Below the pieces are notes generated by a model that saw nothing but the letters and a program-made list of their open reading frames with translations, had not been told where the DNA came from and ran no database searches. Of a stretch of DNA of 64,000 bases, positions 24,721 through 40,062 are shown piece after piece (within the stretch, counting starts at the first letter, position 1; each line of letters begins with the position of its first letter). This stretch comes from Albidovulum sediminis (lineage in GTDB: Bacteria > Pseudomonadota > Alphaproteobacteria > Rhodobacterales > Rhodobacteraceae): contig NZ_JAOCQF010000005.1 in the NCBI RefSeq assembly GCF_025380365.1, forward strand, positions 62,001 to 126,000, in the 5' to 3' direction. The translations under genes were made by a program, and so were the position numbers.

Positions 24721-25680
24721 CTAGACCGCTGCACGCCACATTCTGAAACGCCCTTGGCCGGTCACCTCGCAGATCAGCCCGTGCTCCTCCATCCAAGCCA
24801 GGTTTCGCTGAACAGCCGCACGACTGGCGCCGCTCAGAGTCTCGGCCATCGGCGCAGAGACCAAGGGCCATTCGGTCAATGCAGCGCGCAAAGCCGGAGG
24901 CGTACGGCCAGACAAAACTGACATGGCCGTCTCCACCCGAGTGGACCATATTTCGAGATCGTCGAGGTGCCGCATCGCTGCGAGGCATGCGTTGTCCATT
25001 CCGTCCAGCCAGCGGATCAACCGCTCTGCCGGAGGTCCGCCGGCCCGAAGCCCCCCTGCCCCACCCATTGCTACTGGTGCGAAAATCGCACCCTTCCCTT
25101 CGGCTGCAGCAGCTCGGCCTGCCGTGACCGCAGCCTCCATCCGGTCACCATGCTGACCGAGACCTGCCAAGCTCCAAAGGTGAAAGCCCAGACAAGCCCG
25201 GGTGATAGGGTGAAAGTGTCGGGCGGCTCCCATCAAGGCGAGCCAACCATCGGCGCGATCAGTGAAACGCTCGGCGTCATCCGCTATGTTCTCAGGGTCC
25301 CGCCGGTCGAGAAAATCGGCTAGCCCAGCTTCGGGGCCAGGCCCTCCAGTGAGACGTCGAACGGCCCATCCAACACGAGACAGCGCCCCAGAGTCTTCCT
25401 GAGCGCCAGACAGACGAAGCGCGATCCAGAGTGCAAGGCGGTCAGGGCTGACCCGGTCGCCAACGAACCAGCTTAGCTCTGCAGCCTCGATCAGTGCTAA
25501 TCTGTGCCGCCAACCCGATGGCCCGCGTCGCAGACGGTCGTCAAGCGCGCCCAGTCTCCCGGCTACTCGTGCAAGGCGGGCCGCACAACCCGCTTCGGCC
25601 CGGGCCCATGCCGCAACGACTGAGGTTTCGCTGGGTTCAGATCTTGGGCCTGGAAGCAGATAATCAGGTTCCTTATCCAT
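24721..25680 (-). CDS. RHE_PE00001/DUF1612-type plasmid protein with C-terminal HTH
   Basis: 319 residues from ATG 25680 (MDKEPDYLLPGPRSEP), preceded by CAGGA. The helical N-terminal region (LIEAAELSWFVGDRVSPDRL, ALSRVGWAVRRLTGG) and the C-terminal winged-helix segment (MAETLSGASRAAVQRNLAWM) match proteins I know as the RHE_PE00001 or DUF1612 family, common on alphaproteobacterial plasmids near scpB/DUF1403 genes. Function unknown. A longer start at 25716 crosses into the left end of transposon 2, which inserted 15 bp upstream of this ATG and separated the gene from its promoter. Confidence 0.7.
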   Translation of the reverse strand: MDKEPDYLLPGPRSEPSETSVVAAWARAEAGCAARLARVAGRLGALDDRLRRGPSGWRHRLALIEAAELSWFVGDRVSPDRLALWIALRLSGAQEDSGALSRVGWAVRRLTGGPGPEAGLADFLDRRDPENIADDAERFTDRADGWLALMGAARHFHPITRACLGFHLWSLAGLGQHGDRMEAAVTAGRAAAAEGKGAIFAPVAMGGAGGLRAGGPPAERLIRWLDGMDNACLAAMRHLDDLEIWSTRVETAMSVLSGRTPPALRAALTEWPLVSAPMAETLSGASRAAVQRNLAWMEEHGLICEVTGQGRFRMWRAAV

Positions 25681-25694
25681 CGGTCCTGGCAGGA

Positions 25695-25790
25695 ACCACT
25701 GTCGCTTTTCCTTCACGATTTCACTGCGTGGTTTTCACATGATTTCCGCAAGGTACCTCCGGAAGTGGCGCGGGTTTCTGCTTTGCGATT
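25695..25790. repeat. Left end of transposon 2 with target duplication and internal repeats
   Basis: ACCAC (25695-25699) is followed by the terminal repeat from 25700. Related sites with the core GATTTC recur at the terminus (CACGATTTCACTGCG), then at about 25738 (CACATGATTTCCGC) and 25785 (TTTGCGATTTCAATT). They are likely transposase binding sites. Confidence 0.7.
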
Positions 25791-25835
25791 TCAATTTCAT
25801 TATGGACTTCAATAGGTTTTGAAGGGCACGGCGGC

Positions 25836-27497
25836 ATGACAGCACTCAGCAAAGATCGGCCTTTGGAGCGGGCAGCTTACCGCGCTTCAGACGAGGCTTG
25901 GTCGAAGGCGGTTCGGATCGCTCGCGAACTTGACCGGGTTCTCGATGGCGACTTGCCGATGCGGGAGGCTGTCAGCCGGGCAGCGGTGGAACTGCGCCTT
26001 TCGACGCGTCAGGTCTACAATCACCTCGCCCGGTATCGGGAGGACCGCCGTGTCTCGTCGCTTCTTCCTCGGACGAATGGCGCGCGGCGTGCGAGGATAT
26101 CGGCCAGCGTGGAAGCCATCATTTCCGACACTTTGCGAAAGATGTGGCTGCAGCCAGAGCAACCCGATCTCGCGCCCATCGTCGACGAAATCCGTGCGCG
26201 CTGTGACAGCGAAGGGTACAAGCCCCCGTCCTATGTCACTGTGGCCAAGCGGATCCGGCGCGTGTTCACCCCAGAGGAGATCGCGCGGCGGCGGCTTTCC
26301 GGTGGCAAGCATCTTCACCGCCTGAAGCCGCGTCCGGGATACATCCGTGCCGCCCACGCCCTTGAGGTCGTCCAGATCGATCATACCCCGGCCGACATCC
26401 AGTTCGTCGAGGTGATCGACGATCATGGCATCTTCGTTGGCAGACCTTATCTGACCATCGCCGCCGATGTGGCGACGAGTGCCATCATCGGCTTCTGTCT
26501 GACCCTCGAGCGTCCGTCCCGGCTCTCGGTCGCCTTGTGCCTTGCCCACGCGATATGCAGCAAGGATAACTGGCTGGCCGAACGCGGGATCGCGCACCCG
26601 TGGGTGATGCATGGCCGCCCTAAGCAGATCGTCGTGGACTCCGCCAAGGAATTTCAGAGCAGTACCTTTACGAAAGGATGCGCCGACTTCGGGATCACCG
26701 TCCGAACCCGGAACAAGGGCACAGTTCACCGAGGTGGGGTTGTCGAGCGCCTCCTTGGAAAAGTGAACACGGTGCTTCGCTCTCTTCCTGGCAAGACCGG
26801 ACGGTCGATCGCGGATCGCGGCGACTATTCGTCCGATGAGAGGGCAAGTCTGACCTTCGCGGCCCTCGAGCGTTGCATCGCCCTGGCAATCGTCGATCAC
26901 AACCAGACCCAGAACGCGCGCAAGCTGACTGTGCCTCGCCTCGAATGGGAGCTGCGACTTCCACCGACGGACCGGCCGATCGATGATCCTGACCAAGTCC
27001 TGCTCAACTTTCTCCCCCGCACAACACGCCGCATCTCTCCCCAAGGCGTCAGCCTGTTCGCCATCGACTACTTCGAGCAATGGCTTGGGCCTCTCGTCGC
27101 CCGCCGTGACCGGTTGCCACCTCTGGATCTATGCTACGACCCCCGGGACATCAGCCGGATCTACATCGCCGATCCCGACACGCGGATCTGGCGTCCGGTA
27201 AAGCGGCGGGATGGGGTGACCATGCCAATCACCCTTTGGCAGCATGAAGCCGACCGAGCGCGCACGCGAGAGAGCCAACAACGACCGGCGCAGGAAAAGA
27301 CGCTTCTGCGCCGGGAAATCGCGGCGACCGTCGCCGGGGCCAAATCCAAGAAGGCTCACCTGCGGGAAATGACCAGGGCCCGACACGCCGCAGACGCGCC
27401 GAAGGCGTATCAAAATGTCGGGCAGGTTTCGGAGGCGACCCATACCGGACCAGAACCTGACCGACCCCGCCGCGTCTTTCCTGTGGAGACCTGGTAG
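25836..27497 (+). CDS. tniA: TniA-like DDE transposase (transposon 2)
   Basis: 553 residues. The N-terminal HTH (LRLSTRQVYNHLARYREDRR) is followed by the rve core: Asp in VVQIDHTPADIQF, Asp in QIVVDSAKEFQS, Glu in GGVVERLLGKVNTVL. The C-terminal beta domain carries GVSLFAIDYFEQWLGPLVAR and YDPRDISRIYIADPD. It differs from the other two TniA proteins of the window in the Glu-motif region and in having VDSAKEF in place of VDNxxxF, so it belongs to a separate branch. It ends one base before the tniB ATG (…ETW, stop at 27495-27497). Confidence 0.92.
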   Translation: MTALSKDRPLERAAYRASDEAWSKAVRIARELDRVLDGDLPMREAVSRAAVELRLSTRQVYNHLARYREDRRVSSLLPRTNGARRARISASVEAIISDTLRKMWLQPEQPDLAPIVDEIRARCDSEGYKPPSYVTVAKRIRRVFTPEEIARRRLSGGKHLHRLKPRPGYIRAAHALEVVQIDHTPADIQFVEVIDDHGIFVGRPYLTIAADVATSAIIGFCLTLERPSRLSVALCLAHAICSKDNWLAERGIAHPWVMHGRPKQIVVDSAKEFQSSTFTKGCADFGITVRTRNKGTVHRGGVVERLLGKVNTVLRSLPGKTGRSIADRGDYSSDERASLTFAALERCIALAIVDHNQTQNARKLTVPRLEWELRLPPTDRPIDDPDQVLLNFLPRTTRRISPQGVSLFAIDYFEQWLGPLVARRDRLPPLDLCYDPRDISRIYIADPDTRIWRPVKRRDGVTMPITLWQHEADRARTRESQQRPAQEKTLLRREIAATVAGAKSKKAHLREMTRARHAADAPKAYQNVGQVSEATHTGPEPDRPRRVFPVETW

Positions 27498-27498
27498 C

Positions 27499-28380
27499 AT
27501 GGCCGACCATCTCCTACCATCAACCTCAGCGTTGCTCGATGCGGATGCTGCCACCCGCATTGCTCATATTCGGGCGCCACGCTGGATAGGCCATCCCGGT
27601 GCCTCTGCGGCACATGATGCGATGCGGCAGCTGTTGGAACGCCCGCCATCACTCCGTCCACGCGGCTTGTTGATTGCTGGTCCCTATCACAACGGCAAGA
27701 CCATGATCGCCGAACGCTTCGCCGTCGAACATCTGCGCCGTGCCGACCGGCAAAGGGTCTGGGTGATCCAGACCCGGGAGGGGGCAGGCCTGTCGCATTT
27801 CTACGCCAGCATTCTGTCCGGACTGCGCGCCCCGCAAGCTGCCGGCTGGCGTAGCCTGTCCCGCGCCAGCGAACAGGTCGATCATCTTCTCGACAGCGTC
27901 AAGCCGCGCCTGCTCATCTTCGACGAATTCCACAGTGTTCTGCGCGGACGCCGACAGGATGTGAAGGCAATCTTCTCGTTCCTGCGGCGGATCGCACGCG
28001 TGCATGACATCTCGCCCGTGCTTGTCGGCGAAATCGCTGTCTATGATGCATTGCACGACACTGAAGAAATGGGCTCGCGGTTCGATACGGTCGCAGTGTC
28101 ACGGTGGGGATTCGACGAAGACTTCGCCACGCTTCTCGACAGTCTCGAGGCCAGCATGCCGCTTGCGCATGCCTCAAACCTCTCACGACCTCCCCTGGCC
28201 AAAATGATCCATGATCTGTCGGAAGGGCTGATTGGCGAGGTGGTCGACATCGTCACCCGGACGGCGGTGGCAGCTGTTGAGAGCGGTGAGGAAAGGATCA
28301 CGTCCAGCACCGTCATGGCCCTCGGCTATGTACCGCTGTCACGGCGACGGAACTCGGCCTTGCGCCATTCAATGACATGA
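27499..28380 (+). CDS. tniB: TniB-like AAA+ ATPase (transposon 2)
   Basis: 293 residues from ATG 27499 (MADHLLPSTSALLDADAATR); the frame upstream to 27415 is tniA shadow. The family entry ARWIGHP-type phrase reads APRWIGHPGASAAHDAM. Walker A is GPYHNGKT and Walker B is PRLLIFDEFHSVLRG, followed by sensor-like VHDISPVLVGEIAV and an R-rich end. Its stop overlaps the tniQ start (ATGA). Role: target-complex ATPase. Confidence 0.9.
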   Translation: MADHLLPSTSALLDADAATRIAHIRAPRWIGHPGASAAHDAMRQLLERPPSLRPRGLLIAGPYHNGKTMIAERFAVEHLRRADRQRVWVIQTREGAGLSHFYASILSGLRAPQAAGWRSLSRASEQVDHLLDSVKPRLLIFDEFHSVLRGRRQDVKAIFSFLRRIARVHDISPVLVGEIAVYDALHDTEEMGSRFDTVAVSRWGFDEDFATLLDSLEASMPLAHASNLSRPPLAKMIHDLSEGLIGEVVDIVTRTAVAAVESGEERITSSTVMALGYVPLSRRRNSALRHSMT

Positions 28381-29378
28381 CCAGCAGTGCGCAGAGGATC
28401 ACCGTCTCCCCGGCCCGCCGCTATAGAGTGGCCGCGGGGCATCGCTGGCCGGTGGACGTCCGGCCAGCTCCTGGGGAGCTTTTGTCAAGCTGGCTGCATC
28501 GGCTTGCACATGCCAATGGTGTGCCGCCGCGCTATTTTGGAGCGGTGCTCGGGGTGGCCGGCGAGACATGGTCGGCGCAACTTGACCGGCATCTGCCGGA
28601 TTCTGTTCGTCGCTTGCTGCTCGACCATACGGCGATCTGCCCCGACGAGATCGACGGTCTTTGTCTGGCCAACAGTCCACTCTCGACCCTGCGCTTGCGG
28701 CTGCGGACCCGGCCGCAAGATGCAGGGACATCGACGGCGCAGTCCTGTTGGTTGCAGTTCTGTCCCTCCTGCCTGGGGGAAGACGAGGTGCCCTATTTCC
28801 GGCGGAGCTGGACCTTGGCAACCCGCGTGTCCTGCTTTCGCCATGGCTGCCGCTTGCGCGACCGTTGCCCGTCTTGTGGGCAGAGCCTTGCGCCATTTCG
28901 TCAGGCTCGCCTCGTGCCACAACAGTACTGCGCCTTCTGCGACGCCCCTCTCGCAAAACCGACTGGCCCGGCAAGCACGGGCGCCCGGCGCCTCGAGCGG
29001 CTGATCGACGATCTGCTGCGCCTTGATTCCGCTGAGCGCGCGCAGGACGACCGGAAGTCTCTTGCCGTGCAGCTTATGAAACACCCAGTGCCCGTCAGAA
29101 CGGCGACATCAACGGTCCCATTCTTGTCGCATCGGGTTCGCTACAATTTCTTCCAGCGGTTGTCAGAGCGGCAGATCGAGGTAAGAGACCCCACAGAACG
29201 CGGCCCGCTGACCTTCTGGCTCGGGCTGGCCCGCGCCTCCGAAAACCACAAGGGGTTGGTCGGGACGCTCAGAGATCGGCTTGGCGAAACTGTCGGGCCG
29301 GGGCCGGCCTCCTCCTCCAGAGAGCCTGATCTGGCCGCCTTGCTGCGGGCAGCAATCCGGCTTCACCAAAGTCGCTGA
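28377..29378 (+). CDS. tniQ: TniQ-like target-selection protein (transposon 2)
   Basis: 333 residues. The TniQ signature PGELLSSWLHRLAHANGVPP lies at about residue 32. Zinc-binding pairs follow: CPSC in FCPSCLGEDE, CFRHGC, CPSCGQS and CAFCDAP (about residues 125-200). The C-terminal region lacks recognisable domains. Convergent with scpB, with only 26 bp between stops. Probably directs the element to its target class. Confidence 0.88.
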   Translation: MTSSAQRITVSPARRYRVAAGHRWPVDVRPAPGELLSSWLHRLAHANGVPPRYFGAVLGVAGETWSAQLDRHLPDSVRRLLLDHTAICPDEIDGLCLANSPLSTLRLRLRTRPQDAGTSTAQSCWLQFCPSCLGEDEVPYFRRSWTLATRVSCFRHGCRLRDRCPSCGQSLAPFRQARLVPQQYCAFCDAPLAKPTGPASTGARRLERLIDDLLRLDSAERAQDDRKSLAVQLMKHPVPVRTATSTVPFLSHRVRYNFFQRLSERQIEVRDPTERGPLTFWLGLARASENHKGLVGTLRDRLGETVGPGPASSSREPDLAALLRAAIRLHQSR

Positions 29379-29404
29379 TTTCCTGCTGAAGCCTGGCCGG
29401 TCGC

Positions 29405-30013
29405 CTAACCTTCCATGGCCCCCGATGGGCCTGCCAGGCCTGCATCGTCCAATTGCTCGGGGTCTGGCAGGTCGCGCAAGGACTCCATCCCGAAGGCAGC
29501 CAAGAACGCCTCGGTGGTGACGAAGGTATGAGGCGCGCCACGGCGGGGTTCGCGAGGGCCGGTGCCGATCAGGTCCCGCTCGGCAAGTCGGCCGATCAGG
29601 TCACGGCTGATCCCTTTTCCGAAGATGTCCTTCAACCCGTCGCGGCTGATCGGCTGGTGATACGCAATCGCCGCCAGCACGGCCAGATCGTATTCCGACA
29701 GGTTCAGCGCTTGGCCGTCCACATCCGCCGCGGCGCGGATCGCCGGGGCATAGGCCGCGCGCGTGCGCAGCATCCACGCCTTTCCCACCTGTGCCACCTC
29801 ATAGGGTCGGCCTTCCAGATCCACAGCCAGATCCTCGATCAACAGATCGACTGAGGCCCCCTGCCCCACGACCCGCGCCAGATCCTCGCGCGCCACCGGG
29901 GTCGTGCTTGCGAACAGCACCGCCTCGATCCGACGCATCCATTCCCGCCAGCGCAGCTCAGGGGGAAGAACGGCCAATTCGCGGTCAAGTTCTGTGTCCT
30001 CGCGCCGCCCCAT
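29405..30013 (-). CDS. ScpB-like segregation/condensation protein (transposon cargo)
   Basis: 202 residues. Two winged-helix domains typical of ScpB: RIEAVLFASTTPVAREDLAR near residue 28, RPYEVAQVGKAWMLRTRAAY, then LSEYDLAVLAAIAYHQPISR and RDLIGRLAERDLIGTG with the terminal PHTFVTTEAFLAAFG. ScpB normally works with ScpA and SMC in chromosome condensation; here there is no scpA, and it forms a two-gene unit with the DUF1403 gene (2 bp apart). On alphaproteobacterial plasmids I recall this same pair next to recombinase genes. Its position inside the target duplication makes it transposon cargo. Confidence 0.85.
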   Translation of the reverse strand: MGRREDTELDRELAVLPPELRWREWMRRIEAVLFASTTPVAREDLARVVGQGASVDLLIEDLAVDLEGRPYEVAQVGKAWMLRTRAAYAPAIRAAADVDGQALNLSEYDLAVLAAIAYHQPISRDGLKDIFGKGISRDLIGRLAERDLIGTGPREPRRGAPHTFVTTEAFLAAFGMESLRDLPDPEQLDDAGLAGPSGAMEG

Positions 30014-30015
30014 GC

Positions 30016-30903
30016 TCAGACCCCGTAAAGTCGGAACGTGTCCCGCCCTGTCAGTTCGCGCACGGCGCCGAGCGCCACCAGTCGGTCGCAGAGCCGTCGC
30101 GCGGCCCGATCCGACATGAAGGCCAATGCCCCCGGCACCAGCGCATCGCGCGACAGGAACAGATCGACCGCCCGGCCCGCCGCCTTGGCGCGCAGCTTCG
30201 GGGCCACTGCCCGAAGGCGGGCCGCCGCACGGGCCAGATCGCCGGCCAGCGGCAGCGCCTGCCGAACGGCAGAGACAACGGCGCGGTGACAGGCCAGCCG
30301 CAGATCATCGCCCCGCAAGCGTATATCGCGGGGCTTGAGCGTCAGCGCCAGAAGCGGCAGCACATGCGTTGCCCCCAACGCTTTTGCCAACGCGGCATCG
30401 GACAGGATCAGGGCGGCGGCCTCGGCTCGCGGACTATCGGTCAGCACCGCCTCGACGACCTGCGCCGCGCGGTCCACTGGGGTCGGTCCGGTGGCATCAA
30501 GGCAAAGCGCGATCCGCTCTGCCGTTACTCCGTCCAGCGTATTGACCAGATGCGCGACCGAAACCGGCCGCGCCGCCGCGCGTGACCACTGCCGTGCGAT
30601 CCGCCCCGCCGGGCCGGGGTCGTCGCCCGGTCCCGTCAGGTGCAGGGCATCGCGCAAGGCGCCCTGCCCTTCCCTTCGCCCCGCCATCGCAGCGCAGTTC
30701 TCGGCCGCCGTCAGGGCCAGACGATCGCGCCACAGCGCCAGAGGCACATCCCCCGACGCCATTGCCTGACCCAGATGCGCCAGCGCGGCCCCGGACCGGA
30801 AGGCCGCAGCCTCCGGCGGCTCGGACGGCGCAGAGACGATCCAGCCCGGCAGCGGGGGCAGCATCGGCAAGGTTTCCAAAGGCTCGGCGCGCGGTTTTCC
30901 CAT
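30016..30903 (-). CDS. DUF1403 family protein (transposon cargo)
   Basis: 295 residues, DUF1403 by phrases such as AAFRSGAALAHLGQAMASGD, WRDRLALTAAENCAAMAGR, DDLRLACHRAVVSAVRQALP and the end RAARRLCDRLVALGAVRELT-GRDTFRLYGV. No catalytic motif is apparent; the C-terminus looks like a winged helix. It is transcribed ahead of scpB. It is divergent from the tyrosine recombinase in the ancestral arrangement, before transposon 3 inserted. Function unknown; a DNA-binding partner of ScpB is a reasonable guess. Confidence 0.75.
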   Translation of the reverse strand: MGKPRAEPLETLPMLPPLPGWIVSAPSEPPEAAAFRSGAALAHLGQAMASGDVPLALWRDRLALTAAENCAAMAGRREGQGALRDALHLTGPGDDPGPAGRIARQWSRAAARPVSVAHLVNTLDGVTAERIALCLDATGPTPVDRAAQVVEAVLTDSPRAEAAALILSDAALAKALGATHVLPLLALTLKPRDIRLRGDDLRLACHRAVVSAVRQALPLAGDLARAAARLRAVAPKLRAKAAGRAVDLFLSRDALVPGALAFMSDRAARRLCDRLVALGAVRELTGRDTFRLYGV

Positions 30904-30981
30904 GTCGGCAGCTTATATTGTGACGGCGCTTTCTGCCAGAGAAATGCACCTATAGCGCCGCAGCTTTGTCGGCTCCACAAT

Positions 30982-31006
30982 GTCCAATAAGATTGCATTA
31001 TCGGAC
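30982..31006. promoter_or_regulatory. Imperfect palindrome between DUF1403 and the recombinase
   Basis: GTCC-N-ATAA ... TTAT-N-GGAC over 25 bp (30982-31006). It lies in the original divergent promoter region between the DUF1403 gene and the recombinase start, so it is a candidate operator. Half of it (GTCCGATAATG on the minus strand) is identical to a repeat inside the right end of transposon 3. Confidence 0.5.
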
Positions 31007-31060
31007 GTAAAGACGATAGGGTCACAAGCATGACCTGTCGTTTTAGTTTCATGGGTGGAT

Positions 31061-32116
31061 TCACCCGAAATCAGCCCTCTCGCCTTCAAAGTTTCCACTT
31101 AATCGGTGGACCGGGCTCTTGCTCAATCTCTGGACTCCTCGTTTGCCCCGGTCAGCATGGGGCATTCCTTTGCAGATCGCTGACGCCCGTTCCTGGCTCA
31201 GATATCGTGTCGGCGCGACGCGCCTGAACAATCTGGAGGCCGCCTCCGGCATCGTGCCGTCTGAAACAAGCGCAGCTCCAAACAAGTCCTGCAGCACAAC
31301 TAGCGTCAGCGCACGCCACCGAACCGGAAGGCGCCTCAGCGGCGCGGGTGTGCCCACGACGGCCCGGACCTCGAAAGGGCAATGCCATCCGGGTTGGTCG
31401 AACCAGAGCGCCAAGACCGGGCGGGCCGCGTCCACACGATCAAGCGGCGCCCACAAAGTGCGAATTGCCTGCTCGAGAGGTGCGCGAAGATCCGCGCACC
31501 CTCTGACGATCCGTCCGGCCTGCCGTTGCAGACCGAAGACTGTTTTGGCGAATTCGGCGGCCGAACGAACCGCCGCCGCCCCTCCCCTTCCGGTGAGTTG
31601 ACCATCGCATTTACGGCAGAATGGGCGCAACCGGCCGTCGCGTATTCTGAACGAGATCCGCAGATGGCATCCACAGCCGGGGCAGCGATCCCGCAGCATT
31701 TCTGTGTGCGCCGGGCAGACGATCTGTTCCGCCAGCCGCCATTCCGCCCGTACGTAGGCGTCGCGCCCTGCCGCTAAATCGGCATCGAAACAGGCAAGGC
31801 AAGCCGGAACTGTTCCCCTCGCCCCCTCGAAGAACCAGTCCGGCGGGCGTTCGGTGTATCTGGATTTCAGAGACAGGCGTTCAAGACGCGCGGAATCGAT
31901 CCGACAACCCCGCGCCCAAAGCCTGAGCAAACCGCGATCGGGGCATATATCGTCGATCTTCCGCAAATCCGGGGCGCGGCCCCCCTGCCCTACCAGATAG
32001 GCTGTTAGCCCCGGCACCTCCAGATCATAGCGGGCGGCGACCCGTGCCATCCAGGAGGAGAGCAATTCATCCCGAAACGGGCGCGGTGCAACGGGAAGCC
32101 GGATCGCCGCTGTCAT
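31061..32116 (-). CDS. tniQ: TniQ-family target-selection protein (transposon 3)
   Basis: 351 residues. The signature FRDELLSSWMARVAARYDLE starts at about residue 14. Zinc pairs: CLACFD, CPAH, CPGCGCH and CRKCDGQ (about 108-188). The C-terminal extension is about 70 residues longer than in transposon 1. The ATG overlaps the tniB stop (ATGA). The stop is only 25 bp from the left tip of the element, so the termini are very compact. Confidence 0.88.
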   Translation of the reverse strand: MTAAIRLPVAPRPFRDELLSSWMARVAARYDLEVPGLTAYLVGQGGRAPDLRKIDDICPDRGLLRLWARGCRIDSARLERLSLKSRYTERPPDWFFEGARGTVPACLACFDADLAAGRDAYVRAEWRLAEQIVCPAHTEMLRDRCPGCGCHLRISFRIRDGRLRPFCRKCDGQLTGRGGAAAVRSAAEFAKTVFGLQRQAGRIVRGCADLRAPLEQAIRTLWAPLDRVDAARPVLALWFDQPGWHCPFEVRAVVGTPAPLRRLPVRWRALTLVVLQDLFGAALVSDGTMPEAASRLFRRVAPTRYLSQERASAICKGMPHADRGKRGVQRLSKSPVHRLSGNFEGERADFG

Positions 32117-33048
32117 GCCGAAACCTGGGGTTGCAGAGTTTGACGCGAGCGACGGCGATTGCTTTGCGTCATCGACACCAGCGGCAGCACCAGATCATCC
32201 CCGAAACTCTCGGCGTCGAGTCTCTCCCGGCCAGAGTGAACGGCTGCTTCCGCCGCGGTCTCGATCAAACGGAGTATGCGCGCCGTTACACCAGAGGTCA
32301 GCGCATGGACCCGTGCCCTGGTCGCGGGGCCCGTCAAATCGGACGGCTCGCGCAGCGGCAGGATGTGCCCGAGGCTTTTCAGCAGTCCGGCAAAGGCGGC
32401 ATCGTTCTTCCAGGGCTTGAGGTGAAACGCTTCGAACCGTTCCGCCAATTGCGCATCCGTCAGCAGCGCCTGACGGGCAAGGTCGGTCCCTGCGCAGACC
32501 AGGGGAATCCGCAGATCGTTAGCGAGGAACCTTATGGCATTAAGGAAAATTCGCTGCTGCCTGTATGTGCCGGCCAGCATGCCGTTCACCTCGTCGAGAA
32601 TGATCATCTTCGCCCCGACCGTGCGCAGCAGCGCGCGGCAGACATCCTTCTCGCGGGCCAGTGTGCCCCCGGCCATTGCCGGCGCGCCCATGCTGGACAG
32701 CAATTCGCGGTAAAGGTCCCGTTCGAGCGGTTCGGATGGCACTTGAGCAACCACCACTGGACGACGATCAACACCGGTCACCTGACAGAACTTTGGCGGG
32801 TGAGCGCGCTCGAACTTGCGGACAATCTTGGTCTTTCCCATGCCCGTGTCGCCATAGATCAGCAAACAGGGCATCCGGTCACGGGCTGGGTAGGTCAGCA
32901 GGTTTTCCAGGCGCGCGAGCGCCAGGCCAGCCTGATCGAAGCCGATCCAGCGGTCGGCCCGGATCCAGGCGATACGCTCGTCATCCGGGAGCCCCGCGAA
33001 CTTCCGATACGCCGGATCGAGATGCGGGCACCCCCCTGCTCCGCTCAT
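32113..33048 (-). CDS. tniB: TniB AAA+ ATPase (transposon 3)
   Basis: 311 residues from ATG 33048, whose ATGA overlaps the tniA stop and has GAGG seven bases upstream; an ATG at 33054 is too close to that site. Walker A is YGDTGMGKT and Walker B AKMIILDEVNGMLAG, followed by YRQQRIFLNAIRFLANDLRI. The entry phrase IAWIRADRWIGFDQAGLALA is a TniB hallmark. All parts needed for the target-site ATPase are present. Confidence 0.9.
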   Translation of the reverse strand: MSGAGGCPHLDPAYRKFAGLPDDERIAWIRADRWIGFDQAGLALARLENLLTYPARDRMPCLLIYGDTGMGKTKIVRKFERAHPPKFCQVTGVDRRPVVVAQVPSEPLERDLYRELLSSMGAPAMAGGTLAREKDVCRALLRTVGAKMIILDEVNGMLAGTYRQQRIFLNAIRFLANDLRIPLVCAGTDLARQALLTDAQLAERFEAFHLKPWKNDAAFAGLLKSLGHILPLREPSDLTGPATRARVHALTSGVTARILRLIETAAEAAVHSGRERLDAESFGDDLVLPLVSMTQSNRRRSRQTLQPQVSA

Positions 33049-34688
33049 GACCATTCCTCCACTTCGAACGTGGGCACATCGAGGATGTCGCAGGCTTCCG
33101 CGTGATCGGGGATACTTTCTTCGATCGCGGCGAGCTCGACGCCGGACAGCGCCCTGTCGCGCCGTTCTGTGAGCCGTCTGGCCTCCCGGGTTTTGCCGGT
33201 TGCGGCATCGACAAGGGCCCTTTGCTCTTCGATCACTGCGAAAATCAGCGTTTCGTCCTCAAGCGACCGCCCCCGCTCCCTCAAAACCACCTGTGCGCGG
33301 CGATGCTCGGCCAAGGTGATCGGAGGATGGCGCAGATCGGCAAACCGCACCGGGTATCGCTGACCATCCGGCAATCGCACGAACACCCTCGAGAGATCGC
33401 GCGGATCGTAGGACACACGCAACTGCCGGTCGCCTCTGCCCGCCCAAAGGCTCAGGATATCGTCCCAGTACCGTAGGCCGAAGAGATGGATGCCATCGCG
33501 ACGCACCATGCGTTCGACACTGGGCAGAAAATCGATCCGGAACCCTTCCAGGTCGTATGGCTGCCGCAGAGATGTGTCACGCCGCGCATAGGCCTCCTGC
33601 CAGGCCGCAAGGGGCGGAATGCCGAGGGACCGATGGCGCTCAGCATGGTAGCGGGTGATTTCCAAGGCGAGCCAGCGCTCCAACTCGTCCAGCGTCATGG
33701 CCGATCTGGCGGCCGAGTCATACTCGCCGCGATCCTGAGTGTTGCTGAAGGTCGATCCGGGTAGCAAATGCACGGCCCCCATCATCGTGCCGATCAACCG
33801 TTCGATATGGCCACCGTAATGTGGCGCGCCGATCGGACGATATTGTAGCGAAATCCCATGTTCTTCAGCACCGCGCCGCAGTGCCTTGGAACGAAACTCC
33901 TTGGCATTGTCGACATGAATGGTCTCGGGCATTCCCGCTGCGGGCCAGCTCGCATCGATGCCCAGGCTTTCAAGCCAATCCAGCTTCGGTTGAACCAGGT
34001 GCTGGATGACAAGTGAGACAGACAAAGCGGACGGTGGCTCCAGTGTCAGATAGAACCCTGCAACCATGCGGCTCGCGACATCGATGGCCAACGTCAGCCA
34101 GGGCCGCTGCAAGGGCTGACGTTGCGCCCGATCCACGATGATGACATCGACCAGCGTGTGATCAATCTGGACCACCTCGAATATCCCGTCGACCTGATAG
34201 GTGCCAGGAACCGGCCGATAAAAATGGCGCGCAGCCTTCGCCCCTTCTCGGGCGGCAACCAGCTCGGCCGGATCCAATGCCGCCACACGGTCCCGCAGCG
34301 TGGTCCAGGACGGGGCACGCAGGCCCCGCTGACAGCAAAGCCTGCGCACCTCTTTTTGCAGGGCATGGATGCTCGGCTTCTGACGTGATTTGAAGAAGCT
34401 CGCGATCGCCTCAGAAATCAGCACTTCGATCTCGTCCGGCAGCCGGCGGCGGCCCGCTGGGGATCCCGCTTGAGCCGTCAGCAAAGAACTGGTGGCTGGG
34501 CGCGCCTTATAAGCACGGATCAGTTCGTAGATGCGTGATCGCTTAAGCCCAAGGTCCCGGCAGGCTGCGAGGACGTCCGCTCGGCTTGGGCTAGCTTTGC
34601 ACGCAAGTCGGCGAACCACAGCCTCCCGTGCAACTGCCCGTTCCCATGCGGCATCGCCAACGCCGAAGATGTCTGTTCGGTCCGACAT
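33045..34688 (-). CDS. tniA: TniA DDE transposase (transposon 3)
   Basis: 547 residues from ATG 34688 (MSDRTDIFGVGDAAWERAVA); a TTG at 34700 is a poorer choice. HTH region LGLKRSRIYELIRAYKA; rve core with Asp in EVVQIDHTLVDV, Asp in TIHVDNAKEFRS and Glu in GGHIERLIGTMMGAVHLLPG. The C-terminal beta domain has GIHLFGLRYWDDILSLWAGR and YDPRDLSRVFVRLPDG. Catalytic triad complete. The promoter region overlaps its own end repeats (34680-34805), allowing autoregulation. Confidence 0.92.
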   Translation of the reverse strand: MSDRTDIFGVGDAAWERAVAREAVVRRLACKASPSRADVLAACRDLGLKRSRIYELIRAYKARPATSSLLTAQAGSPAGRRRLPDEIEVLISEAIASFFKSRQKPSIHALQKEVRRLCCQRGLRAPSWTTLRDRVAALDPAELVAAREGAKAARHFYRPVPGTYQVDGIFEVVQIDHTLVDVIIVDRAQRQPLQRPWLTLAIDVASRMVAGFYLTLEPPSALSVSLVIQHLVQPKLDWLESLGIDASWPAAGMPETIHVDNAKEFRSKALRRGAEEHGISLQYRPIGAPHYGGHIERLIGTMMGAVHLLPGSTFSNTQDRGEYDSAARSAMTLDELERWLALEITRYHAERHRSLGIPPLAAWQEAYARRDTSLRQPYDLEGFRIDFLPSVERMVRRDGIHLFGLRYWDDILSLWAGRGDRQLRVSYDPRDLSRVFVRLPDGQRYPVRFADLRHPPITLAEHRRAQVVLRERGRSLEDETLIFAVIEEQRALVDAATGKTREARRLTERRDRALSGVELAAIEESIPDHAEACDILDVPTFEVEEWS

Positions 34689-34809
34689 GGCTAAAACCAA
34701 GAAAATGGTATCTTGTGTCCGATAATGAAATTAGAATCCAGAAATGAAACAAGAACATGAATACAATGATATCAGTGCGTTAGAGTCCATCAATGGAACA
34801 AGAACGACA
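34680..34809. repeat. Right-end repeat array of transposon 3
   Basis: Four similar 21-bp sites in one orientation: 34680-34700, 34717-34737, 34736-34756 and 34785-34805, consensus GTCCRNMAATGRAANNARAAC, followed by the tip GACA. The single recognised counterpart at the left end lies at about 31040-31061. They are probable TniA binding sites. Confidence 0.75.
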
Positions 34810-35905
34810 GACCGAAACGCCCGAGAAATCGCCTTCAGAACCCCCGGAACGTCCCGATCGCCATGAGCGGGACGACAGCGCTGATACGGAGCGCGACACG
34901 ATCGCCCCGCCCTCCCATGTCGCTGGCTCGGGCACGCTCGACCGCCTGGTCGAAACGGCGCGTGACTATGCGCGTCAGGCGGCGTCGGAGAACACGCTGA
35001 AGGCCTACACCAAGGATTGGGCCCACTTCGCGCGCTGGTGCCGGATGCGTGGCGCGGACCCTCTCCCCTCGTCGTCCCAGCTGATCGGCCTCTACATCGC
35101 CGATCTGGCAGCGCCGAGCGGCAAAGCACCTGCCCTCTCGGCCTCCTCTATAGAACGGCGGCTGTCTGGCCTGACCTGGGGCTATGCGCAGCGCGGAGAG
35201 CGGCTCGACCGCAAAGATCGGCACATTGCCAGCGTCCTGGCTGGCATCCGCCGCAAGCACGCACGGCCACCAGCACAGAAAGAGGCCATTCTGCCGGAAG
35301 ACCTGCGCGACATGCTGGCAACCCTCCCCCACGATTTGCGCGGCCTGCGCGACCGGGCGATCCTGCTGATCGGCTTTGCTGGTGGCCTGCGTCGGTCCGA
35401 AATTGTCAGCCTCGACCACGGCAAGGATGACACGCCTGACTCCGGCGGCTGGGTCGAGATCTTGGAGGACGGCGTGCTCCTCACCCTGCGCGGCAAGACC
35501 GGTTGGCGCGAGGTCGAAATCGCCCGCGGCTCATCAGATCAGACCTGCCCGGTCCATGCCCTGACGCAGTGGCTGCATTACGCAAGGATCGACTTCGGCC
35601 CGATCTTCGTCGCCACGTCACGCAACGGCCTGAAAGCTACGAGCGAGCGGTTGTCCGACAAGCACGTCGCCCGGCTGATCAAGTCCTGCGCCCGCGAGGC
35701 CGGGCTACGCCCTGATCTGCCTGAAGCCGAGCGCGTGCGGCTGTTCTCGGGCCATTCCCTGCGCGCAGGCCTTGCCAGCAGCGCGGAAGTTGATGAGCGC
35801 TACGTTCAAAAGCAGCTTGGTCATGCCAGCGCAGAGATGACCCGCCGATACCAGCGACGCCGCGACAGGTTCCGGGTGAACCTGACCAAGGCCGCAGGCC
35901 TGTAA
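34793..35905 (+). CDS. Tyrosine site-specific recombinase (cargo of transposon 2)
   Basis: 370 residues. The SAM-like N-terminal DNA-binding domain (SENTLKAYTKDWAHFARWCR) precedes the catalytic domain with Arg in FAGGLRRSEI, Lys in LRGKTGWREVE, HSLRAG box, GH in LGHASAEM and the nucleophile Tyr in TRRYQRR. The first codons (MEQERQ) are encoded by the right terminus of transposon 3; the native start was evidently ATGACCGAAACG, split by that insertion. Translation therefore lacks its native promoter and ribosome site. It may resolve cointegrates of transposon 2, as TnpI does in Tn4430; that is inference. Confidence 0.85.
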   Translation: MEQERQTETPEKSPSEPPERPDRHERDDSADTERDTIAPPSHVAGSGTLDRLVETARDYARQAASENTLKAYTKDWAHFARWCRMRGADPLPSSSQLIGLYIADLAAPSGKAPALSASSIERRLSGLTWGYAQRGERLDRKDRHIASVLAGIRRKHARPPAQKEAILPEDLRDMLATLPHDLRGLRDRAILLIGFAGGLRRSEIVSLDHGKDDTPDSGGWVEILEDGVLLTLRGKTGWREVEIARGSSDQTCPVHALTQWLHYARIDFGPIFVATSRNGLKATSERLSDKHVARLIKSCAREAGLRPDLPEAERVRLFSGHSLRAGLASSAEVDERYVQKQLGHASAEMTRRYQRRRDRFRVNLTKAAGL

Positions 35906-35984
35906 GCCCCCTGCCCTTCCGTCGAGCCTTTGCTGAAATGCCAAGCTCCAACCAGACCGCTCAGGTTTCAGCTAATCGCTTCAA

Positions 35985-36014
35985 TTGAAATCGGGAACCA
36001 AACGCGACAACCAC
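35985..36014. repeat. Right end of transposon 2 with target duplication
   Basis: The sequence TGAAATCGGGAACCAAACG then CGACA ends at 36009 and is the inverted counterpart of the left terminus. It is followed directly by ACCAC at 36010-36014, the second copy of the target duplication. Confidence 0.88.
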
Positions 36015-36404
36015 AGGTCGTCTTCGGACGCCTGTTCTCTTCCCTCGGGATCGCCGAGGGCTTCGTCAGGACTATCAGGCAGAACAGTGAGGTAGGGCTT
36101 CATATGTGCAAAATACGACTATTATGCAAACTACCCAAGGGTTTTCTGTGGGGCTGCATTTGCTCCTTATATAGTACGCGCGCGCGGTGTCCGTGGAGAG
36201 CGCTCTAGTCGCGTACAGCGCATGGAAACGAAGGGGTTTCCAGCGATCAGCACCACACAGCGTACCCTTGCATTCGTTTACAAACGGTGGTTTACAATCA
36301 GCACGTATTGCAAGAAAATACTAAATGAAAACAATATATTGTACAAGTTCCGCCGCACGCTGACTGAAAGGATTGGTCGCTCATCTAACCTATGCCGGGA
36401 GTAT
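36010..36404. other. AT-richer intergenic stretch right of transposon 2
   Basis: It begins with the ACCAC target copy and should include the original upstream region of the DUF1612-type gene. It contains a short perfect inverted repeat GGAAACgaagggGTTTCC near 36224 and AT-rich runs (36300-36345). No coding frame looks genuine. A promoter is expected here but none was placed with confidence. Confidence 0.45.
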
Positions 36405-37133
36405 TTATGCTGCGGTCCCAACTGTCGTGGGTCCGGTCAGGGGCACGGGCGGGCTGTCGAGGCGTGCGGACCAGTCCTCGACCCGCCGCACCTCGATCCG
36501 GCGCGCTGCGAGCCGCCTCCAGCTTTCGGGCAGGCCCTCAAGCGCAGCAAGGCCGCCAAGGGATGCGAGATCGAGGGTGTCGCGGTAAAGCACCTGTGCC
36601 ACACGGGCGAGTGGCCAGGCGGGGTTCGACCGGGCGGTCAGACGCGCCTCAAGGCCTGCATGAAGGCTCCCGGCTTCGATCACGCGGAAGTACCAGCCGG
36701 TCCGGCCGGTGTCCTGTACGCGGCGCGCCATATCGGGCACTCCAAAGCGCAGGTTCAGCTTCCAGCAGGGCTGCCGCCCCTGGCTGACCTCGAGCAGAAC
36801 ATCGCCCAGTCGCCACCGGTCGCCGAGGCAGATGTCGGCCTCTGTCGCGCCCTCGACCACCAGGTTCTCGCCGAACGCCCCGGGCCGAAAGCGCTCGGCG
36901 CGCTCGGGCTGTTCCTCTGCCCAGACCGGGTAATGAGCCACGGCATAGGCGTGAATCGCCTTGTCCGGCCCGCCGTGATGGCGCGGGTCGCCCTGCGTGT
37001 CTCCTGCAAGGCCCGTCGTGGAGGCCATGGTCGGACCCTCGACCACGCGCTTGTCGATGGCCGAGGGCTGGCCCTGAGGTCCAAAGGGGCGCGCAGGACC
37101 GATGCGGACTTCTCGAACGCGAAAGACGGTCAT
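36405..37133 (-). CDS. MOSC domain protein (YiiM-like)
   Basis: 242 residues. MOSC features: VVEGPTMASTTGLAGDTQGD near residue 30, HHGGPDKAIHAYAVAHYPVW, FRPGAFGENLVV and the cysteine of SQGRQPCWKLNLRFG, the conserved sulfur-carrying Cys of the family. A C-terminal YiiM-type 3-alpha domain follows (NPAWPLARVAQVL). MOSC proteins handle molybdenum cofactor sulfur or reduce N-hydroxylated compounds. Last gene of an operon of overlapping genes (ATGA with the amidotransferase). Confidence 0.85.
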   Translation of the reverse strand: MTVFRVREVRIGPARPFGPQGQPSAIDKRVVEGPTMASTTGLAGDTQGDPRHHGGPDKAIHAYAVAHYPVWAEEQPERAERFRPGAFGENLVVEGATEADICLGDRWRLGDVLLEVSQGRQPCWKLNLRFGVPDMARRVQDTGRTGWYFRVIEAGSLHAGLEARLTARSNPAWPLARVAQVLYRDTLDLASLGGLAALEGLPESWRRLAARRIEVRRVEDWSARLDSPPVPLTGPTTVGTAA

Positions 37134-37825
37134 GCGCCCACCCCGGTCTCGGCCAGCCAGCGATGGAACATTGCGCGCGCCGCCGTTTCCAGCCGCAGGC
37201 CATGGCGCGCCGTGTCTGCGCGCAGACCGGTGACCCCGATCCCGGACGTGGCCGCGATTTCCAACGTATGTCCGACGAGCCAGGGCTCGATCCCCTGCGC
37301 GCCAGCCTCGGCGTGAAACTGGAGCGCGAGGGCGCGCGGGCCGGGCGCAAAGGCCTGGGTTGCGCAGGCCGCGGTCGCGGCAAGGCTCGGAATTTGCGGC
37401 GGCAGATGGCAGACCTCGCCGTGCCAGTGCAGGACGGGAATGCCATCAAGTGCCTCAAGCGCGCTGGCCCGGCCCGCTGCCGTCAGCTCAACCGGCGCCC
37501 AGCCGATCTCTTTCGCCGGACCGGAGCCGACCGTGCCGCCGATGGCGCAGGCCATGATCTGCGCTCCGAGACAGATCCCGATGGTCGGTCGGCCCATCGC
37601 GATCCGGGTCCGGGCGAGGTCAATCTCGCGCCGCAGGAAGGGGTAATCGGCGGCGTCGTTCACGCTGATCGGCCCGCCGAGCAAGATCACCAGATCGGCG
37701 TATTCCGCCTCATCAGGAATTGCCCAGGCTGGGCAGGTGCGCAGGGCAATGCCACGCTCGGCAAGGACCGGCTGCAGCAATCCGGCGTCCTCGAAGGCCA
37801 CATGGGTGATTGCGATCGCGGTCAT
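37130..37825 (-). CDS. Class I glutamine amidotransferase (GMP synthase-like)
   Basis: 231 residues from ATG 37825; the longer frame is a shadow of the next gene. GATase fold with the nucleophile in GICLGAQIMACAIGG, the histidine in ALQFHAEAG and the matching acidic residue nearby. ILLGGPISVNDAADYPFL and WHGEVCHLPP are typical of free-standing GMP-synthase-like amidotransferases, some of which hydrolyse gamma-glutamyl conjugates. Overlaps both neighbours by 4 bp. Substrate unknown. Confidence 0.85.
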   Translation of the reverse strand: MTAIAITHVAFEDAGLLQPVLAERGIALRTCPAWAIPDEAEYADLVILLGGPISVNDAADYPFLRREIDLARTRIAMGRPTIGICLGAQIMACAIGGTVGSGPAKEIGWAPVELTAAGRASALEALDGIPVLHWHGEVCHLPPQIPSLAATAACATQAFAPGPRALALQFHAEAGAQGIEPWLVGHTLEIAATSGIGVTGLRADTARHGLRLETAARAMFHRWLAETGVGA

Positions 37826-38286
37826 TCCAGGCTCTCCTTCACTAACGCCATCAGTTCCGCACCAAGTGCAAGGTCGCCGATCTGTCCGAAGTGGCGCGCG
37901 CGCATACGGCCCGCGCGGTCGAACAGCACCAACGAAGGTGTGCCTTGCAGGCCCCAGGCCTCCATTGTGCGCGGAAGCGCGCCCGTCCCGGGGGCATCGA
38001 TGGCCACGGGGAAACGGATGCGCCATTCGTGCAGGAAGGCGGCCAGCGCTTCGGCACTGTTCGCCGCATGGTGCTCGAACACTGCATGCAGGCCGATCAC
38101 GGCGATCTCGGCGGGGTCGAAGGTGGCGGCGATCCGGCCTGCCTGCGGCAGACCGTGCATCACGCAGCCTGGGCAAAGCATCTGGAACACCTCGACTGCC
38201 AGCACCCGGCCGCGGAAATCCGCCAGCGACAGGGGGCCGTCGGTGTTCAGCCAGCGCGCAACGTGGAAAGAGGGGTCTTCGGTCAT
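37822..38286 (-). CDS. TlpA/redoxin-like thiol protein
   Basis: 154 residues with a thioredoxin fold: LADFRGRVLAVEVFQMLCPG then CVMHGLPQAGRI, giving a CPGC redox motif (about residues 38-41), cis-Pro region LQGTPSLVLFDRAG and the helix EIAVIGLHAVFEHH. No signal peptide, so probably cytoplasmic, unlike most TlpA proteins. Likely a thiol reductase or peroxidase working with the Trx-like protein and MOSC protein in the same operon. Confidence 0.8.
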   Translation of the reverse strand: MTEDPSFHVARWLNTDGPLSLADFRGRVLAVEVFQMLCPGCVMHGLPQAGRIAATFDPAEIAVIGLHAVFEHHAANSAEALAAFLHEWRIRFPVAIDAPGTGALPRTMEAWGLQGTPSLVLFDRAGRMRARHFGQIGDLALGAELMALVKESLE

Positions 38287-38340
38287 GATCCTGGCCCTGT
38301 CGGATGGGATCGGGGCGACGGCAGGCGCCGCCCCGACGAC

Positions 38341-39093: not shown

Positions 39094-39335
39094 GCCGCCC
39101 CCTTCACGTCGGTCAGCGCGGCGCCGAAGTTGATGTGCAGGGGCACGCCCCCGATCACGAGCGCGGGCACCGAGGCGACGCCTGCGGCCTCGGCCTCGGC
39201 TATGCGGGCGCGGTCGGTGCCGAGGTGGACGATCTCGACTGCGAAGCGTGACGGGTCGAGCGCCGTGGCGAGATGCCGTTCTGCGTCAAGGCAGACGCTG
39301 CATCCGGCGTGGTAGAATGTGGCTTTCTGTGGCAT
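39090..39335 (-). CDS. Small thioredoxin/glutaredoxin-like protein
   Basis: 81 residues with redox motif CSVC (FYHAGCSVCLDAERHLATAL), a cis-Pro segment ASVPALVIGGVPLHINFGAA and the length of glutaredoxin-like proteins. First gene of the operon 39335 to 36405, in which consecutive genes mostly overlap by 4 bp. Probably supplies reducing equivalents or senses thiols for the group. Confidence 0.8.
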   Translation of the reverse strand: MPQKATFYHAGCSVCLDAERHLATALDPSRFAVEIVHLGTDRARIAEAEAAGVASVPALVIGGVPLHINFGAALTDVKGAA

Positions 39336-39379
39336 GGTCAGGTGTCTCCTGTCTTTTCCATAGGCGGAGTGGACAACAA

Positions 39380-39413
39380 GGACGCCTCGCCCGTTGCCGC
39401 GGGCGGGGCGTCC
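39380..39413 (-). terminator. Hairpin after the MarR gene
   Basis: GGACGCCtCGCCCG and its near-complement GCGGGCGgGGCGTCC form a GC-rich stem with a short loop. On the minus strand it is followed by TTGTTGT. It separates the MarR gene from the redox operon downstream. Confidence 0.5.
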
Positions 39414-39424
39414 GGCTTTGTGGC

Positions 39425-40045: not shown

Positions 40046-40062
40046 GGTGCCGCTATCGATTC

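Follow-up and report, generated by a model that had tools for sequence, protein, structure and literature searches.

The 64,000-nucleotide stretch of Albidovulum sediminis DNA analyzed here (the window) probably contains two TniABQ transposons, one inserted in the other and each located at a plasmid site-specific recombination locus. The anatomy of the elements, their ends, the empty sites, and the recurrent one-sided insertion of the nested element (TniABQ2) can be read from the sequence, as can split-duplication junctions of the cointegrate type, the foreign leader in the window, and partner exchange at a recombinase core site. Within the same explanation, and with the same degree of confidence, the outer element (TniABQ1) is likely a TniABQ transposon of the replicative kind, with a plasmid-type recombination module serving for resolution. 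The initial annotation had described a single 10.3-kb transposon and assigned the 6.6 kb behind tniQ to cargo. Two nested elements, each at a plasmid recombinase locus, were found instead, and a further set of tniQ, tniB, and tniA, with ends of its own, occupies the minus strand of region 31061–34700; the 6.6 kb are therefore not wholly cargo.

Limits and gene content of the two elements

TniABQ1 extends from 25700 to 36009 (10,310 bp, or 6,536 bp once TniABQ2 is subtracted), as delimited by its ends and target duplication, an empty site, and a sister copy. The left terminal repeat TGTCGCTTTTCCTTCACGATTTCA (25700–25723, plus strand) and the right terminal repeat TGTCGCGTTTGGTTCCCGATTTCA (35986–36009, minus strand, outer base 36009) match in 20 of 24 positions, a value that 24-mer pairs drawn at random from the window did not reach in 200,000 trials. 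Both are flanked by the duplication ACCAC (25695–25699 and 36010–36014). The comparison with an empty site, which the initial annotation had proposed, led to the Tabrizicola piscis plasmid NZ_CP034329.1 (L149), where the site is uninterrupted; it is 96% identical to window positions 36294–36009 and 94% identical to 25699–19450, and its two aligned pieces overlap at the insertion point. With these repeats, duplications, and empty site, the firm limits claimed for a TniABQ transposon hold. The sister copy on contig C19 of the same genome (72% DNA identity, gene order and ends alike) is devoid of the nested set and lies in a homologous target with a duplication of its own, CCACA, which bears out the claim that scpB, DUF1403, and the recombinase travel inside a TniABQ element. 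Ten distinct loci could be read on both flanks of TniABQ1: the 5-bp duplications match in four (window, C19, L044, L042), and the flanks are unequal in six (L026, L141, L137, L102, L109, L092).

The gene identities given initially were confirmed by Pfam. On the plus strand, TniABQ1 encodes the DDE transposase TniA1 (25836–27497; Mu-transpos_C 4.8e-12, rve below cut-off), the AAA ATPase TniB1 (27499–28380; TniB 3.7e-45), and TniQ1 (28377–29378; TniQ 1.4e-23). These are followed on the minus strand by a plasmid-type scpB (29405–30013; 7.1e-33), which shares 39% identity over residues 24–193 with a copy on contig C11, and by the DUF1403 gene (30016–30903; 9.5e-78), whose product shows a weak C-terminal HTH_13 match below its cut-off. 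A candidate recombinase core site, GTCCGATAA-TGCAATC-TTATTGGAC (30982–31006, minus strand), has a 7-bp spacer and a dif-like shape. The tyrosine recombinase gene (34793–35905, plus strand; Phage_integrase 1.2e-14) encodes the motifs GLRRSE, LRGKT, HSLRAG, LGHAS, and RRYQR; the protein is XerC/XerD-like, with matches below the curated cut-offs. After removal of the nested element, TniABQ1 is a 6.5-kb unit with the order tniABQ-scpB-DUF1403-core site-tyrosine recombinase.

TniABQ2 (31036–34809, minus strand, 3,774 bp) was delimited by terminal repeats common to L073, L083, L091, and L107. It comprises tniQ2 (31061–32116; TniQ 4.7e-11), tniB2 (32113–33054; TniB 1.6e-66), and tniA2 (33045–34700; Mu-transpos_C 8.7e-16, HTH_Tnp_Mu_2), all on the minus strand. 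No resolvase of its own was detected, the family-matched open reading frames of 31036–34809 being tniQ, tniB, and tniA only. In the window, TniABQ2 is inserted exactly at the start codon of the tyrosine recombinase gene: the start and the first residues (MEQERQ) are donated by the element end, and the native codons begin at 34810. The ATG of this end reads into the recombinase frame at three loci (window, L083, L107) and is out of frame in L073, L091, L143, and L145.

Insertion of TniABQ2 next to the core site

A scan for TniABQ2 gave eight places in seven of 380 genomes, the eighth place being a 3.8-kb contig without readable flanks. In all seven places with readable flanks, the element is situated 5′ of DUF1403, with a further Tni set separating the two in L144, and the recombinase lies on the opposite side in five of them; none was seen there in L135 and L147. 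Nitrobacter, Aminobacter, Rhizobium, and Shinella plasmids likewise have the element in the gap between recombinase and DUF1403 (four of five records examined); the record of Rhizobium sp. N324 has neither gene beside TniABQ2. At all loci with both sides seen, TniABQ2 adjoins the core in a single orientation. The near end is 29–31 bases from the core in 17 of 18 measurable loci. Of the 27 loci examined, this count omits L144 and L178, whose closest end is that of a different Tni lineage (an assignment made from the end alone in L178), L079 with a decayed end, L028, L180, and L182 without the core pattern, and L179, L181, and L183, where the stretch is without DUF1403. The fixed spacing was considered as proof of targeting and was demoted to support, because the leader between element and core can be passed on by inheritance.

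Instead of the core, TniABQ2 could read some 5′-terminal sequence of the recombinase gene, comparable to the attachment gene of a Tn7-like element, the core being a mere neighbor. This is possible, though we rate it on the unlikely side. Three insertions placed directly at the start codon (window, L083, L107) agree with it, and the recognized feature would have to be near the leader. However, the recombinase 5′ ends and leaders are highly variable and the core is nearly invariant; on a 259-kb contig of genome G311, moreover, TniABQ2 lies inside the recombinase gene, 54 bases from the core instead of 30, and the ends of the other Tni lineage in L144 and L178 are 44–45 bases away from it. We infer that TniQ2 senses the core in its recombinase-bound form.

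The recombination module and the target of TniABQ1

As far as the sequence tells, alphaproteobacteria possess the scpB-DUF1403-core-recombinase set as a recombination module of plasmid type. Matches to the DUF1403 protein were obtained in 552 of 72,556 plasmid records; the term DUF1403 was not found in the literature searched. Of 99 readable loci, 84 have the dif-like palindrome ahead of DUF1403, 71 of these 84 at an identical distance from it; the pattern, which was derived from the same loci, occurred in none of 9,900 shuffles. L031 and L033 agree completely over 300 bp of their DUF1403 sides, and beyond the core, where the switch falls, their identity is 42%. The initial guess of a role in cointegrate resolution is strengthened by the conserved core and this partner exchange; the tyrosine recombinase would perform the resolution, and ScpB and DUF1403 may be accessory to the exchange.

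The set had been regarded as cargo of the transposon. The right terminal repeat was found in 15 of the 23 rows holding both tniA1 and the recombinase (14 distinct, because L026 and L142 represent one plasmid), and every time at one of two fixed spacings behind the recombinase, in two lineages; in the window, its outer end is 107 bp beyond the final recombinase codon. The set therefore behaves as a core part of TniABQ1, and its description as cargo is not supported. Related tniABQ genes next to other scpB-DUF1403 pairs, which the initial annotation had suggested looking for, were seen in 11 of 14 scanned TniABQ1 places, where the pair adjoins tniQ1; of the remaining places, two break off within tniB and continue into a different Tni set, and L132 has no scpB-DUF1403 within 992 bp. 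That the set is a passenger of TniABQ1 with no role in transposition thus appears improbable, given the fixed spacings, its presence in most scanned places, and the prediction that tniABQ elements without TnsA require a resolvase (parts of PMC8649781). What speaks for a passenger is that the two are separable: tni fragments occur next to otherwise resident sets, and 54 of 80 fetched DUF1403 loci hold the set without a trace of tniABQ1, so that it also exists as resident DNA. Sets free of tniABQ and repeats, named initially as the finding that would count against transposon-borne travel, hence occur elsewhere, but the copy in the window is enclosed by the ends. The interpretation of the set as the resolution part of TniABQ1 has parallels in clades 2 and 3 of the Tn7-like elements, which are likewise devoid of tnsA and have a serine or tyrosine resolvase as a predicted core part (sections of PMC8649781). 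'ScpB' has no occurrence in the text of that paper, and a plasmid recombinase core is not given as a target in its sections consulted. The module resembles Xer/dif and single-recombinase systems in that a XerC/XerD-like recombinase adjoins a palindromic dif-like core, and differs in its 7-bp spacer, the single recombinase, and the constant company of DUF1403 and ScpB.

The target of TniABQ1 is the 5′ end of an HTH gene divergent from a plasmid serine recombinase gene. The insertion splits this gene, a feature missing from the earlier description: its 3′ part (24721–25716, minus strand, weakly RHE_PE00001-like) is fused to the element end, and its detached first 30 codons (to ...EDDL) are located at 36010–36103 on the minus strand, according to the alignment with the intact genes of L149–L152 (end coordinate counted by hand). 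On the reverse strand, the left repeat provides the split gene with an in-frame GTG start. Start-codon donation was rejected as a rule. The element end supplies an in-frame start in 15 of 20 distinct junctions with a target 5′ end, which are not independent, because the insertion point itself recurs; in the other five, an ATG is formed at the joint (L009, L140), the start is in another frame (L136), or there is none (L109, L132). The count leaves out loci with a different flank (L032, L050, L054, L137, L141), with a contig stopping at the repeat (L034, L133), or with no left end found (L035, L040, L070, L077, L134, L139). A common family of DUF1403 and the target HTH gene was also discarded (profile comparison probability 9%), the weak HTH_13 match being their sole common feature.

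At four of four intact loci, the insertion point of TniABQ1 is in the adjoining gene, about 262 bp away from the position presumed for the serine crossover; in L102 and L109 the distance is 45–60 bp. A serine recombinase follows the right end in eight of 15 right-end rows (L042, L137, L009, L109, L102, L035, L077, L092) and lies 9 kb past it in the window; none was seen in six other rows, two of which end there. The end of TniABQ1 nearest the target recombinase gene is the one away from tniA. In the Tn5053/Tn402 family, the end away from tniA is termed IRo, and the resolvases whose res sites these elements hunt are serine enzymes. TniABQ1 shares with this family tniA, tniB, and tniQ, the 5-bp duplication, and related inverted ends, but carries a tyrosine recombinase and its core without a serine TniR/res. 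As described in parts of PMC7765201 and PMC11406308, Tn5053/Tn402 elements are res site hunters; like the elements found here, they combine tniABQ and a 5-bp duplication with insertion at plasmid resolution loci and with nesting inside a carrier transposon, in their case in its res, and they carry tniR-res (PMC7765201). TniABQ2 differs from them in having no resolvase of its own and in being located at the core of a tyrosine recombinase instead of at a serine resolvase locus. Furthermore, its tniA end faces the target recombinase, whereas IRo is nearest the resolvase gene in Tn5053/Tn402 (PMC7765201, in part).

Cointegrate-type junctions and the leader of the window

L104 represents an empty site of TniABQ2; at a threshold of 1e-30, tniA2 had no match in its genome. 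Its alignment with L145 extends over 7,540 bp (100% identity) and that with L143 over 3,190 bp (99.97%), and the two alignments overlap by TGGGG; the L143 alignment contains one mismatch, which falls within the core spacer and corresponds to the base of the partner. The TniABQ2 copies of L143 and L145 are 99.7% identical and form direct repeats on the single 259-kb contig, with the 5-bp duplication divided between them, as in cointegrate-type junctions. The presumed cointegrate is a single assembled contig, and a misjoin between the near-identical 3.8-kb copies is possible; the TGGGG duplication would hold as a simple insertion even then. The distance of 54 bases between this insertion and the core, in place of the usual 30, also weighs against the overall explanation.

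In the window, the 29-bp leader between TniABQ2 and the core (31007–31035, minus strand) is foreign to its lineage. The leader matches L033 in 15 and G475 in 26 of 29 positions, and the DNA on both sides of TniABQ2 and leader is 99.8% identical to L033. An ordinary 5-bp duplication was rejected, with only GGTC common to both sides, which led to a model of leader exchange. A foreign leader within near-identical outer DNA is what core-site resolution of a cointegrate by the plasmid recombinase should leave behind, and the window is the one case in which such a scar is clear.

It is highly improbable that TniABQ2, instead of being a mobile hunter, has long resided in the recombinase-DUF1403 gap and was passed on together with the module and often lost, since, despite the constant place and orientation, the similar spacing, and the lack of duplications in compared loci other than the four common bases of the window and the split one of G311, this is contradicted by the duplication and near-identical empty site of L104, by the close match of L033 around the copy in the window, and by the recombinase tree, on which 11 bearers need 11 changes. 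This was a quick tree with many open forks, calculated from 80 rows with matches over 200 aa; 104 loci were supplied for the trees and 102 classed (L132 and L154 were dropped, with no or a weak DUF1403 match), and L157 was scored as a non-bearer under the 60% limit despite carrying a 56% relative.

For a mobile TniABQ2, the following course is probable. Being without a recombinase, it would insert next to the core of a tyrosine recombinase and join two core-bearing plasmids in a cointegrate, which the plasmids' own recombinase would part by core × core exchange. The resolved recipient would then consist of its own recombinase gene, TniABQ2, the donor leader, and its own DUF1403 side, with no matching duplication. 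That TniABQ2 in this way outsources both target finding (to the recombinase-core complex) and cointegrate resolution (to core × core exchange), with the leader swapped and no duplication left, is a proposal for and against which we see about equal weight. If true, each jump depends on, and probes, the core compatibility of two plasmids, replicative transposition would be completed by an outside enzyme with a readable scar, and the scpB-DUF1403-recombinase set would gain a likely site and job.

Recognition of a tyrosine recombinase core would mean that Tni targeting reads a second, unrelated recombinase family. A hunter of such a site looks new, none having been found in the literature searched. 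TniQ of Tn6022 similarly finds its site through a protein related to tyrosine recombinases, TnsF, but TnsF is transposon-encoded and inactive, and the marker of TniABQ2 would be the plasmid's own enzyme; TniABQ2 would make testable the idea that Tn7-like elements whose TniQ is short may recruit their target selectors in trans (parts of PMC10293859). A half core arm inside TniABQ2, GTGTCCGATAA (34715–34725, plus strand), was considered as a resolution site of the element itself and rejected, as it is absent from the Nitrobacter, Aminobacter, Rhizobium, and Shinella copies; it is present in the Rhodobacterales copies of TniABQ2 compared.

Two TniABQ transposons, one within the other

The stretch 25700-36009 is read here, from its sequence, as two nested TniABQ transposons, each located at a plasmid recombinase locus. 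This reading includes a testable and, if right, surprising use of a plasmid tyrosine recombinase. The initial annotation described a single 10.3-kb element, and its limits hold: the terminal repeats, with outer bases 25700 (left) and 36009 (right), agree at 20 of 24 positions, and ACCAC stands outside both. The interior was misjudged, as a second tni set with its own ends is present. Minus-strand tniQ, tniB, and tniA genes (31061-34700) occupy the gap between the DUF1403 gene and the tyrosine recombinase gene, and the ends of this nested element (TniABQ2, 31036-34809), TGTCGTTTTAGTTTCAT and TGTCGTTCTTGTTCCAT, recur near-identically in the same gap of the loci L073, L083, L091, and L107. The locus L033 shares the recombinase and DUF1403 sides with the window at 99.8% identity on either side of the nested element. 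Because this alignment is interrupted only by the 3,774-bp element and the adjacent leader (31007-31035), the 10.3 kb resolve into a 6.5-kb unit (TniABQ1) with a 3.8-kb unit inside. Near tniA2, the sequence GTGTCCGATAA (34715-34725) equals one arm of the module's core site and is kept with small changes in nested-element copies from Rhodobacterales.

A site without the outer element, which had been proposed as a check, was found on the Tabrizicola piscis plasmid L149. It aligns to 36294-36009 at 96% and to 25699-19450 at 94%, and both pieces overlap at the duplicated bases. The split target gene encodes an HTH protein (weak NCBIfam match to RHE_PE00001, far under the cut-off) and is broken past codon 30, between EDDL and WFLPGP. 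A sister copy on contig C19 of the same genome has tniABQ, scpB, DUF1403, and the recombinase in the same order, lacks the nested set, and sits in a homologous target gene with the duplication CCACA, offset by one base. Partial outer copies with the same left flank were located at C16:11.8 kb and C18:0.1-0.3 kb. Both flanks were readable in 10 distinct loci, being equal in four (window, C19, L044, L042) and unequal in six (L026, L141, L137, L102, L109, L092). On the Gemmobacter fulvus plasmids L026 and L141, GCCGG is the right flank of one outer copy and the left flank of the other; their other flanks do not pair.

The recombinase module and its place in the outer element

The scpB gene follows DUF1403 in 101 of 102 classed loci. 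Of 99 readable loci, 84 have a palindrome, GTCCGATAA-TGCAANN-TTATYGGAC (the candidate dif-like core, 30982-31006 in the window), ahead of DUF1403, and its distance from DUF1403 is identical in 71 of these 84. The palindrome occurred in none of 9,900 shuffled stretches, which exclude composition only, the pattern having been taken from the same loci. The recombinase resembles XerC/XerD with scores below the curated cut-offs, and among PDB structures it weakly matches XerD and a XerC-like enzyme. It has the motifs expected around catalytic residues. Comparison of close pairs revealed partner switches at the core; in L031, the DUF1403 side is 100% identical to the window, the recombinase is different (62%), and the changeover lies at the core. 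We take scpB, DUF1403, core, and recombinase as a putative plasmid dimer- and cointegrate-resolution system, in which we infer some role for ScpB and DUF1403.

The initial annotation regarded this module as cargo; reading it as a constituent of the outer transposon fits better. In 390 genomes of the order, tniA1 was detected at E <= 1e-150 in 11 genomes and 14 places. Related tniABQ genes adjoin other scpB-DUF1403 pairs: tniQ1 lies next to such a pair in 11 of the 14 places. No scpB-DUF1403 was found within the readable 992 bp by tniQ1 in L132, and two places end inside tniB, with another Tni set beyond. Of the 23 rows that have both tniA1 and the recombinase, 15 showed the right terminal repeat, at two fixed distances behind the recombinase (eight and seven times), 4 bases apart. 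Among the other eight rows, the contigs of L033, L103, and L139 end before it, L031 has an exchanged recombinase, and in L037, L050, L070, and L138 the repeat was not found either. PMC8649781 already predicts serine or tyrosine resolvases as core parts of the tnsA-less Tn7-like elements described there.

Traces of tniA1 or tniQ1 accompany 36 of the 102 classed loci. Among 80 DUF1403 loci fetched from genomes, many of them cut off by contig ends, 54 had no TniABQ1 trace, and 40 without such a trace had both the recombinase and a rep gene within the fetched stretch. Fragments of tniA1, tniB1, or tniQ1 lie by otherwise resident modules in L036, L039, L049, L052, L058, L070, and L103, as if the transposon had brought the module and then decayed. 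A third TniA lineage occurs at 16933-18531 and at C16:15965-17566, with equal score and identity in two places on the same contig; in C16 and L134, a set of this kind lies past the truncated tniB1.

Insertion sites of both elements

In the intact relatives of the target gene (L149-L152), the gene is divergent from an annotated serine-type recombinase (Pfam Resolvase match tested on L151), 226-244 bp apart, and three of the four stretches include rep genes. A AAACGACCGTTT-type palindrome between both genes is common to all four (one base differs in L150) and is likely the serine-recombinase crossover. The insertion point lies 262 bp from this presumed crossover in all four intact loci. Five of nine outer insertions (window, C19, L042, L137, L035) lie at 263-274 bp, L102 and L109 at 45-60 bp, and L092 far away; no distance was obtained for L044. 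This is similar to Tn5053-type hunting, yet the outer element sits mostly beside the recombination site, not within it. An 8.9-kb segment (36294-45180) missing from L149 is bounded by direct repeats of the presumed crossover (36282-36294, 45180-45192), has a tyrosine integrase match close to its right end (44189-45049), and is probably an integrative element with the plasmid's res crossover as attachment site.

The tniA2 scan yielded eight places in 7 of 380 genomes. All seven with readable flanks are on the DUF1403 5' side (in L144 separated from it by a different Tni set), and five of them have the recombinase on their other side. Plasmid relatives (57-68% identity), some with extra genes alongside, occupy the same gap in Nitrobacter, Aminobacter, Rhizobium, and Shinella; in a fifth opened record, Rhizobium sp. 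N324 (54%), no recombinase or DUF1403 was annotated nearby. Wherever both were seen, the tniA end faces the recombinase. Of 27 loci examined, 18 allowed the spacing between near end and core to be measured, and it is 29-31 bases in 17 of them. On the recombinase tree, the 11 bearers of the nested element need 11 changes. A further Tni lineage (about 44-49% to TniA2 or TniA3) occupies the gap in L028, L053, L140, L144, and L178, the last assigned from its end alone; in L144 and L178 its end is 44-45 bases away from the core, and in L053 and L140 it abuts an apparent remnant TniABQ2 end. On a Haematobacter plasmid, the recombinase gene is split by a Tn3 transposase gene around codon 57-60.

In the window, the nested end provides the recombinase with an in-frame ATG and MEQERQ. 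L083 and L107 have such a start too; L073, L091, L143, and L145 have no in-frame start from this end. The outer end offers the target gene an in-frame start at 15 of 20 distinct junctions. Such start supply may reflect the survival of harmless insertions.

A probable cointegrate and its possible resolution

One 259-kb contig of genome G311 contains two nested-element copies (each 3,765 bp, 99.7% identical, same orientation), both with repABC genes in their neighborhood. The locus L104 (Ruegeria sp. R14_0), whose genome gave no tniA2 match at 1e-30, is 100% identical to the recombinase flank of one copy over 7,540 bp and 99.97% to the DUF1403 flank of the other over 3,190 bp. Both matches overlap in TGGGG, which is present at each of the G311 junctions. 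This arrangement reads as a replicative cointegrate with one repeat of the duplication at each copy. Two simple insertions joined in error would look identical, with insertion still evident. The sole mismatch in the 3,190 bp falls in the core spacer, carries the partner's base, and reads as a small trace of core exchange.

From a replicative cointegrate, the plasmid recombinase would resolve the two replicons by core x core exchange, leaving the recipient with its own recombinase and DUF1403 sides plus the element and the donor's leader, and without the duplication. The window, one case for which we found no simpler account, fits such a product: its 29-bp leader matches L033 at 15 of 29 positions, the first six being the bases around the start codon, and G475, another genome of the family, at 26 of 29.
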